Assembly: GCA_020630715.1 (NCBI GenBank)
Contig: JAHDIQ010000004.1
Coordinates: 136,522-200,521, forward strand
Direction: 5' to 3'
DNA from: Nonlabens sp.
GTDB lineage: Bacteria; Bacteroidota; Bacteroidia; Flavobacteriales; Flavobacteriaceae
Length of the DNA stretch: 64,000 nucleotides
Shown: piece after piece, positions 49,259 to 51,569 of the stretch
Layout: every line of letters starts with the position of its first letter
Position numbering within the stretch: the stretch's first letter is position 1
Translations under genes and position numbers: made by a program
The notes under the pieces: model-generated
The model's database searches: none
What the model was told of the DNA's origin: nothing
The model's input: only the letters and a program-made list of their open reading frames with translations

Positions 49259-50380
49259 ATGATTAAAAGACTCATTTTCTCTTCTCTTGTGATTTTATTA
49301 GTTAGCTCTTGCAATCAAAAAGAGATGGCACAACAAACTAATTCAGATATAAGTTCTCAAGATGTATTTCCAACACCTCAATTAAACCTAGAGCAGGCAA
49401 ATAATCTTTCATTACTGCCATTACATTGCATTGATAAGGAATATCCCAATAAAATGGGTCATGTTACTGCGTCACCAGAAGATCAAAAAAGACCTCAAGA
49501 AACACATCCTGTTTTTTATGGATGTTTTGACTGGCATAGTGCTGTTCATGGATACTGGAGTAGTGTAACCTTAATAAAACAATTTCCTGAACTATCAACG
49601 AAGGCTGAATTACTTGAAAAAATTCAATATAACCTCACCACAGAGAACATTCAAACCGAAATTGATTATTTAAATACTACTCATAATAAAACCTTTGAAC
49701 GTACTTATGGATGGGCATGGTTACTAAAATTACAACAAGAACTAGATACTTGGGATGATCCAGTCGGTAAAGAATTAGCTTTAATTCTTCAACCACTTTC
49801 AAATATTATTGTAGAACGTTATCAAGAGTATTTACCTAAACTTAATTATGCCATTAGAGTAGGTGAGCATTCTAATACGGCTTTTGGGATGGTGTTTATA
49901 TGGGATTATGCAGTGCATTCAAAGAATCTACAACTTCAAGAAATCATTTCTGAGAAAGCACTACAGTTTTATAAAAACGATAGTGATTGCCCATTATCAT
50001 GGGAACCTAGTGGTTATGATTTTCTTTCTCCTTGTTTAGAAGAAATAGATATCATGAGGCGTATTCTTAGTGCTGATGATTTTCATGAGTGGCTTGCTCG
50101 TTTTTTACCAGGTATTGAAAATGGTGATCTACAACTAGCTGTAGGAGAAGTATCAGATCGTACAGACGGTAAATTAGTCCATATTGATGGTTTAAACCTA
50201 AGTAGAGCATGGGTGCTTTATGGATTGTCAAAACAATATCCTAGATATGAATCACTCATAGACATTGCAGATGAACACATGCAATTCACTTTACCTAATT
50301 TAGTAGCAGATGATTATGAAGGCGGTCACTGGTTAGGAAGTTTTGCTATTTACGCGCTACAACAAGCTCATAATGATTAA
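49259..50380 (+). CDS. DUF2891-family lipoprotein
   Basis: Lipobox LLVSSCN; CFDWHSAVHGYWSSV...RTYGWAWLLKLQQEL. Confidence 0.85.
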   Translation: MIKRLIFSSLVILLVSSCNQKEMAQQTNSDISSQDVFPTPQLNLEQANNLSLLPLHCIDKEYPNKMGHVTASPEDQKRPQETHPVFYGCFDWHSAVHGYWSSVTLIKQFPELSTKAELLEKIQYNLTTENIQTEIDYLNTTHNKTFERTYGWAWLLKLQQELDTWDDPVGKELALILQPLSNIIVERYQEYLPKLNYAIRVGEHSNTAFGMVFIWDYAVHSKNLQLQEIISEKALQFYKNDSDCPLSWEPSGYDFLSPCLEEIDIMRRILSADDFHEWLARFLPGIENGDLQLAVGEVSDRTDGKLVHIDGLNLSRAWVLYGLSKQYPRYESLIDIADEHMQFTLPNLVADDYEGGHWLGSFAIYALQQAHND

Positions 50381-51569
50381 AAAATGGTTGAATAACATAG
50401 GGCCAGGAACTTTAATCGCCGCCGCGTTTATAGGACCAGGAACGATTACTGTTTGTACCATCGCTGGTGAAGCACATGGAGTAAGTCTATTATGGGCTAT
50501 GTTATTGTCCATTATAATCACGGTCGTACTTCAAGAAATGGCAGCAAGAGTAGGACTAGTGTCTGGTAAAGGACTAGCAGCTGTTTTGAAAACGTCTATA
50601 TCTCACAAAGTTCTTAAATACTTCATACTGGCTTTAGTAATAGCGGCCATTTTTATAGGAAATATAGCTTATGAAGCTGGAAATATAAGTGGTGGTGTGA
50701 TAGGTCTGGAATTAGTATTTAATAGTAAACCATGGTATCCTGCTTTAATGGGTATTTTAGCTTTTGGCCTGTTGATTACAGGAAGTTATAAACTTATAGA
50801 ACGCGTCTTAGTGTTGCTCGTATTGATTATGGGTATATCATTCATAGGAGCTGCAATCGCGGTTAAACCTGTTTTTACAGATATCCTAAAAGGTCTTTTT
50901 ATTCCATCTATTGATGTCGCTAATCTGTTAACGATCACTGCTATTGTAGGAACTACTGTGGTTCCGTACAATCTATTTTTACATGCTTCACTTGTTAATC
51001 AAAAATGGAACAGTCCCAGCGATTTACCGGCCATTAGAAAGGATACCGTTATTTCTGTTTTTTTAGGTGGTGTGGTTTCTATGGCTGTAATGATTGCAGG
51101 ATCTGCATTAATAACTAGTGATATTCCTAGTAGTGCAGATCTAGCTACCGTTTTAGAACCTATTTATGGTGAGGCATCGACCTATATTTTTGCGATTGGA
51201 ATTTTTGCTGCTGGATTAACCAGCGCAATCACCGCACCGCTCGCCGCTGCTTATGTGCTTAATGGTTGTTTAGGATGGAACGCTGGTCTTAAGGATAACA
51301 GGTTTAGAATGAGTTGGTTATTCGTTTTAGCCATAGGAGTTGTATTTGCTTCATTAGGTTTTAAACCCGTAACGATTATCACTTTTGCCCAAATCGCAAA
51401 CGCATTATTACTACCCGTAATTGCCATACTACTTTTAAGCCTAGTCAACTCAAAATTAATGGGTCGTTACAAGAATTCTAAAGTATTAAACATCGTTTCT
51501 ATAGTGATTGTGATTTTAGCAATAGCTTTAGGAATAAAGAGTTTATCTAAAATATTTGAATGGATCTAA
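50373..51569 (+). CDS. Nramp-family-like transporter with non-canonical substrate site; start set at MIKKWLNN
   Basis: IGPGTLIAAAFIGPGTITV aligns with Nramp TM1 (YIDPGN); GTTVVPYNLFLHASLV aligns with TM6 (VMPHNLYLHSALV). Confidence 0.9.
   Translation: MIKKWLNNIGPGTLIAAAFIGPGTITVCTIAGEAHGVSLLWAMLLSIIITVVLQEMAARVGLVSGKGLAAVLKTSISHKVLKYFILALVIAAIFIGNIAYEAGNISGGVIGLELVFNSKPWYPALMGILAFGLLITGSYKLIERVLVLLVLIMGISFIGAAIAVKPVFTDILKGLFIPSIDVANLLTITAIVGTTVVPYNLFLHASLVNQKWNSPSDLPAIRKDTVISVFLGGVVSMAVMIAGSALITSDIPSSADLATVLEPIYGEASTYIFAIGIFAAGLTSAITAPLAAAYVLNGCLGWNAGLKDNRFRMSWLFVLAIGVVFASLGFKPVTIITFAQIANALLLPVIAILLLSLVNSKLMGRYKNSKVLNIVSIVIVILAIALGIKSLSKIFEWI

Follow-up and report, generated by a model that had tools for sequence, protein, structure and literature searches.

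An Nramp-related permease clade with replaced metal ligands, encoded beside 5-oxoprolinase genes and proposed to import 5-oxoproline

The DUF2891-nramp-pxpABC operon

The stretch of DNA analysed in this study, hereafter the window, comprises 64,000 nucleotides of a Nonlabens sp. genome (contig JAHDIQ010000004.1), and the closest named relatives of its proteins are from Nonlabens, Flavobacteriaceae. It carries a tightly overlapping operon in the order DUF2891-nramp-pxpA-pxpB-pxpC, of which the second gene encodes a protein of the Nramp/SLC11 superfamily and the last three encode 5-oxoprolinase subunits. The nramp gene is an intact open reading frame of 398 amino acids (aa), with an ATG start at 50373 and its end at 51569, and is the sole Nramp-family gene of both the window and the genome (G000, 2.98 Mb). 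An earlier interpretation of this DNA, made from the letters without database searches (the sequence-only reading), had reported that the gene overlaps pxpA by 10 bp and DUF2891 by 8 bp, and the coordinates agree; pxpB and pxpC likewise overlap by 8 bp. The features of the operon, including those of the transmembrane helices (TM1 to TM10) discussed below, are as follows.

49259..50380, + strand: DUF2891 gene, first of the operon (PF11199, 440 bits; lipoprotein-like N-terminus, LLVSSC)
50373..51569, + strand: Nramp-related permease of the GPGT clade, proposed 5-oxoproline importer (PF01566, 281.9 bits; clade support 100; AlphaFold2 pLDDT, the predicted local distance difference test, 88.7)
50433..50444, + strand: unwound TM1 motif GPGT, residues 21-24, replacing DPGN (alignment with canonical Nramps; helix break in the model)
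50679..50684, + strand: TM3 Gly103-Asn104, replacing Ala-Glu at the DraNramp Glu134 position (alignment with canonical Nramps)
50961..50969, + strand: TM6 Val197-Pro198-Tyr199, replacing Met-Pro-His (alignment; model break at residue 197)
51390..51401, + strand: TM10 Gln340 to Asn343, invariant within the GPGT clade (alignments)
51560..52297, + strand: pxpA, 5-oxoprolinase subunit of the LamB/YcsF type (PF03746, 226 bits)
52299..52994, + strand: pxpB, 5-oxoprolinase subunit (PF02682, 155 bits)
52987..53823, + strand: pxpC, 5-oxoprolinase subunit (PF02626, 189 bits)

The Pfam domains of all three PxpABC subunits are present and the genes are contiguous. These flavobacterial proteins (51560-53823) match their Pfam profiles strongly, yet score under all the curated NCBIfam thresholds for subunits of 5-oxoprolinase (PxpA 201 against 226, PxpB 126 against 145.6 and PxpC 153.5 against 500 bits), and automatic annotation will under-call them.

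Metal-ligand positions and predicted fold

The nramp protein belongs to the Nramp/SLC11 superfamily, as it scores well above the PF01566 gathering cut-off of 29.8 bits and is predicted to adopt a LeuT-type fold with broken TM1 and TM6. It lacks the TM1 DPGN, TM6 MPH and TM3 Glu that define canonical Nramp metal transporters, and falls below the TIGR01197 (102 against 272.5) and NF001923 (152 against 430) models. TM1 reads AAAFIGPGTITV and TM6 reads GTTVVPYNLFLHASLV; alignment with canonical Nramps places GPGT in the DPGN position and VPY in the MPH position, substantiating the earlier claim that the Asp, Asn and Met of the metal motifs had become Gly, Thr and Val. The alignment added two changes to that claim, namely replacement of the TM6 His by Tyr199 and of the conserved TM3 Glu (DraNramp Glu134) by Asn104. 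Gly, Thr, Val, Tyr and Asn thus stand where canonical Nramps have Asp, Asn, Met, His and the TM3 Glu, respectively. GPGT, GTT-V-YN and the TM3 GN are maintained across 46-48 homologs from Bacteria and Archaea and, being common to the whole clade, reflect neither chance nor sequencing error.

Known Nramp-family proteins that are, like the window protein, encoded with pxpABC include YcsG (MntG) of Bacillus subtilis, PxpT of Corynebacterium glutamicum and MumT of Acinetobacter baumannii. The GPGT and YcsG types have in common TM1 GPG, TM3 GN, a TM6 Tyr and a TM10 Asn (as seen in MumT and its homologs), of which only the PG of TM1 occurs in canonical Nramps; the TM10 residue corresponds to Asn343. 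The YcsG types differ in being only ~26% identical to the window protein and in reading GGTVGGY in TM6, where the GPGT clade has GTTVVPY. The position of TM3 Asn104 holds Asn in the YcsG/MumT types also, and Asp in two Bacillales members of the GPGT clade (L096 from Shouchella and L075 from Sporosarcina); comparison of the sequences suggests that this Asn/Asp position may contact the substrate.

An AlphaFold2 model built with 46 homologs (for its pLDDT see above) contains helix breaks in TM1, after residue 19 and before residue 22, and in TM6 at residue 197. The closest solved folds in a Foldseek search were those of EleNRMT (TM-score 0.87), DraNramp (~0.82-0.85), BfraNramp, human NRAMP1 and the YcsG model 9a52 (23% identity), while amino-acid transporters such as ApcT and LAT1 ranked after the Nramps with lower scores. 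A search of PDB sequences with a YcsG-type protein found no relative. The modelled scaffold would so appear to be that of an Nramp from which the canonical metal ligands are missing; pocket residues were assigned from the alignment and not from model geometry. Canonical Nramps/MntH (clades A-C, SLC11) share this fold, the broken TM1 and TM6 and PF01566, but retain the metal motifs and have other genomic partners. EleNRMT, an Nramp-related Mg2+ transporter (PMC8806188), resembles the GPGT protein in lacking the canonical motifs and in having GTT in TM6, but reads GNDAGG in TM1 and SE in TM3.

Phylogenetic position

In a maximum-likelihood tree of 61 sequences, the GPGT group comprises 30 members from Bacteroidota, haloarchaea, Gammaproteobacteria, Firmicutes, Streptomyces and SAR324. 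The GPGT group, the YcsG/MumT group, the canonical Nramps and the NRMT group each received an ultrafast bootstrap (UFBoot) support of 100. The YcsG type was represented by MumT and plasmid homologs with the same operon, standing in for B. subtilis YcsG and C. glutamicum PxpT; these form their own 100% group without the GPGT protein, which likewise lies outside the clade of EleNRMT-type Mg transporters. When ten sequences were added, five Bacteroidota proteins fell firmly in the YcsG/MumT group (100) and three close homologs joined the GPGT group, whose support became 89, while two divergent proteins (L161 and L165, at most 39% identity) lay outside the smallest split holding that group, though both keep the GPGT and P-Y motifs. 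An approximately unbiased test rejected neither a grouping of GPGT with YcsG types (p=0.234) nor one with canonical Nramps (p=0.512), and hence one and two origins cannot be told apart.

The expectation that GPGT/VPY sequences would form a clade was therefore borne out, and on the sequences compared this clade stands apart, with full support, from the YcsG/MumT group, from NRMT (a Mg transporter) and from canonical Nramps. The suggestion of a new Nramp-related clade stands as regards the clade itself but not as a wholly new idea, since a 2026 preprint (PMC12873925) has already recognised 'Nramp-related proteins', which lack DPGN and MPH and branch paraphyletically at the base of the canonical Nramps. 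A literature search of incomplete coverage found no paper on the GPGT clade or its HyuAB partners; what is new here is the second clade, its archaeal HyuAB partners and the replacement pattern described below.

Genomic partners of the GPGT gene

Among the 30 closest Flavobacteriaceae loci, pxpA adjoins the GPGT gene except at L010 and L028, L022 having a partial pxpA match in the stretch examined. In a sample of 101 Flavobacteriaceae genomes, nearly one per genus, the GPGT gene lies within 3 kb of 62 of the 72 pxpA genes, two more genomes carry both genes, either separated or on fragmented contigs, and pxpA is present in every GPGT genome (64/64). Of the other Nramp-family genes entered in the comparison, none is linked to pxpA (0/43). 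The association has a hypergeometric p of ~2e-18 with shared ancestry ignored. A congener of the window strain (G010) is devoid of any Nramp gene and of pxpA, indicating that within the genus the two are gained or lost jointly.

Across the phylum (151 Bacteroidota genomes, homologs counted at E < 1e-60), GPGT homologs occur in 30 genomes, adjoining pxpA in 22, adjoining HyuA/HyuB in three that have no pxpA, and being unlinked in five, in one of which (G178) the gene directly follows a DUF2891 gene. A species-level set from many phyla was limited to the best 80 of at least 585 loci and leans to Haloferax-like proteins, so that its fractions are not population estimates; pxp genes are found in 50 of these loci and HyuA/HyuB in 20, and the arrangement nramp-hyuA-hyuB is present at all 18 haloarchaeal loci. 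HyuAB is an ATP-dependent oxoprolinase/hydantoinase family different from PxpABC, the nearest solved relatives of HyuA being N-methylhydantoinase and a chain deposited as 5-oxoprolinase, and its occurrence beside the archaeal genes is an independent pointer to an oxoprolinase-type substrate. HyuAB partners were seen with GPGT genes only and not with YcsG types. Co-occurrence of the clade with pxpABC elsewhere, set beforehand as a test in the sequence-only reading, was thus found to be strong in Flavobacteriaceae and to extend across Bacteroidota and into other phyla.

The DUF2891 gene adjoins 27 of the 80 GPGT genes in the same set. Its product in the window is homologous to Campylobacter jejuni Cj0554 (PDB 8ieu; phmmer 8.4e-65, Foldseek TM-score 0.76-0.77), and a C. 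jejuni mutant in cj0552-4, which encodes DUF969, DUF979 and DUF2891 proteins, is unable to use 5-oxoproline (PMC12795558). The putative DUF969/DUF979 transporter (Cj0552-Cj0553) is, like the window nramp, grouped with a DUF2891 protein, although it is not an Nramp. DUF2891 thus accompanies two unrelated transporters, whose common denominator would be 5-oxoproline. One further candidate relative of DUF2891 (L125) proved unrelated and was dropped.

MumT served as the query for a search of Bacteroidota that bear pxpA but no GPGT gene. In five of nine such genomes of the phylum sample a YcsG-type protein (47-49% identical to MumT) lies directly beside pxpA, as confirmed at the loci, while the same search found none in 18 GPGT-bearing genomes. 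This distribution indicates that a single operon role is filled by one Nramp clade or the other, the YcsG types taking the same place at Bacteroidota pxpA operons as the GPGT proteins. In Flavobacteriaceae, eight genomes whose pxpA has no adjoining GPGT gene also lacked a YcsG type; two of them retain a DUF2891-pxpABC cluster devoid of a transporter, and in another a sodium:solute symporter adjoins pxpA. DUF969/DUF979 was considered as a stand-in at pxpA loci without Nramp and discarded, DUF979 being absent from all 35 Bacteroidota searched.

Several loci depart from these arrangements. In L096 and L075 the GPGT gene lies beside an arginase-family gene and a YheO-type regulator, and the SAR324 gene (L058) has a CN-hydrolase and a DUF2848 gene as neighbours, again a setting of organic catabolism. 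In HTCC2207-like gammaproteobacteria (L082, L087 and L097) the GPGT-clade genes have no oxoprolinase nearby, and all three stretches contain a biotin-carboxylase homolog; TM1 reads GPGS in L082 and L087, and a carbonic-anhydrase-like gene adjoins in L082. An apparent Nramp-HyuA fusion in two high-GC Bacteroidota genomes was rejected, the 1100-aa frame being a high-GC overlap with the GPGT gene in another frame. A small gene pair encoding a membrane protein of 187-188 aa and a protein of 147 aa (L126, L129 and L132) lies upstream of pxpA in two genomes and, in the third, upstream of a GPGT gene that is apart from pxpA.

Discussion

Based on these findings, we propose that the product of the window's nramp gene is a secondary transporter with the LeuT fold, belonging to the Nramp superfamily, and that it takes up 5-oxoproline (pyroglutamate), a reading to which we assign a probability of roughly three in four. 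The substrate is inferred from the genomic partners, namely pxpABC, HyuAB and DUF2891/Cj0554, together with replacement by the YcsG/PxpT type. The GPGT permease would bring 5-oxoproline into the cell, where cytoplasmic PxpABC would open it to glutamate using ATP. The unwound segments of TM1 and TM6 would be kept as structure while the charged or soft Mn/Fe ligands are gone, and an uncharged polar pocket may bind the lactam and carboxylate of 5-oxoproline, with the Cj0554-like DUF2891 protein as a probable accessory of 5-oxoproline use. Import of 5-oxoproline for PxpABC had been put forward in the sequence-only reading; the genomic association is strong and supports it in part, transport as such being deduced, and the idea of such a role for an Nramp clade is not new, having been published for YcsG and for C. 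glutamicum PxpT. The latter is 50% identical to YcsG, and its deletion abolishes growth on 5-oxoproline but not on glucose, a defect that was complemented (PMC13274462).

Some observations weigh against this proposal. The broad NCBIfam model NF037982 calls the protein a divalent metal transporter (85.6 against 50 bits), 10 of the 80 loci have no oxoprolinase adjoining the GPGT gene, and the two Bacillales members have their arginase-family neighbour in place of an oxoprolinase. The substrate lactam could differ from 5-oxoproline, given that PxpABC lies under the curated cut-offs. Furthermore, the related YcsG and MumT have been reported as Mn importers (PMC10448178, PMC5050338), and loss of the motifs need not exclude Mn.

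It is accordingly conceivable, though improbable, that the protein imports a divalent metal (Mn2+) and supplies either the neighbouring ATP-dependent lactamase or the whole cell, as claimed for YcsG/MntG and MumT. The Nramp fold and Pfam membership are consistent with such a role, as is the lack of a second Nramp in the genome. YcsG was renamed MntG on being described as a Mn importer, its overexpression having raised cell Mn and ycsG being under MntR, with the earlier 5-oxoproline phenotype regarded as a possible polar effect (PMC10448178). For MumT, assigned to Mn import and encoded in what was termed a 'urea carboxylase' operon, deletion of the gene lowered Mn (PMC5050338). However, every canonical metal ligand is replaced in the window protein, among them the TM3 Glu, which in BfraNramp is a Mn2+ ligand (PMC12873925). 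The genome encodes FeoB and a ZIP-like protein, the congener without any Nramp also lacks pxpA, and such close tracking of pxpA and HyuAB is not what one would expect of a metal importer serving the whole cell; the PxpT deletion, moreover, abolishes growth on 5-oxoproline and not on glucose (PMC13274462).

Import of another small organic molecule (a hydantoin-like or other lactam, glutamate or a dipeptide-derived compound), with PxpABC/HyuAB adapted to it, is no less unlikely: HyuAB-type enzymes act on several lactams (PMC8453981), hydantoins, oxoproline and caprolactam among them, the PxpABC scores leave room for it, and substrates may vary within the clade, as the arginase-family and CN-hydrolase neighbours in Bacillales and SAR324 would allow, but ring opening of 5-oxoproline is the single reaction that PxpABC has in common with many HyuAB enzymes, DUF2891/Cj0554 links the operon to that compound (PMC12795558) and YcsG/PxpT-type proteins occupy the same operon position.

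If GPGT proteins carry 5-oxoproline, their annotation as metal transporters is wrong; among 7998 homologs scored, many of the named ones are labelled manganese or divalent metal transporters. Marine flavobacteria and haloarchaea would then possess a dedicated importer for an unavoidable by-product of glutamate and glutamine. Published work is in open conflict as to whether the related YcsG, PxpT and MumT serve Mn2+ or 5-oxoproline, and a second clade that replaces the YcsG types, has lost the metal ligands and is found with another oxoprolinase in archaea renders this conflict directly testable. It also raises the question of whether Nramp metal transport arose from organic solute transport. 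On a tentative and rather doubtful view, import of organic acids (5-oxoproline or other small ones) would be the older function of the superfamily, which at least two clades placed around the metal transporters in the tree (GPGT and YcsG/PxpT) have retained; Mn/Fe carriers would derive from permeases of amino-acid derivatives by gain of the Asp, Asn, Met and Glu ligands, and an indirect or secondary effect would account for the Mn phenotypes reported for MumT and YcsG.

Related loci

By homology, the mum operon of A. baumannii (L120:5001-10821) has the pxp layout nramp-pxpA-DUF1445-pxpBC-biotin carboxylase, encoding a YcsG-type Nramp, PxpA, DUF1445, a PxpBC-like fusion and a biotin carboxylase, and its published interpretation as a 'urea carboxylase' operon may merit re-examination. 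Two further Nramp-related groups without metal motifs were encountered in Flavobacteriaceae (L133 and L134, from G011 and G018), with GPGS and GTGS in TM1; their neighbours encode a DHDPS-like protein, an amidohydrolase, an M20 peptidase and a glucosamine-isomerase-family protein, which suggests organic substrates. Many Flavobacteriaceae also carry a very divergent Nramp-family gene scoring 45-75 bits (for example L139 and L140), the TM1 of L140 reading IGVSH.
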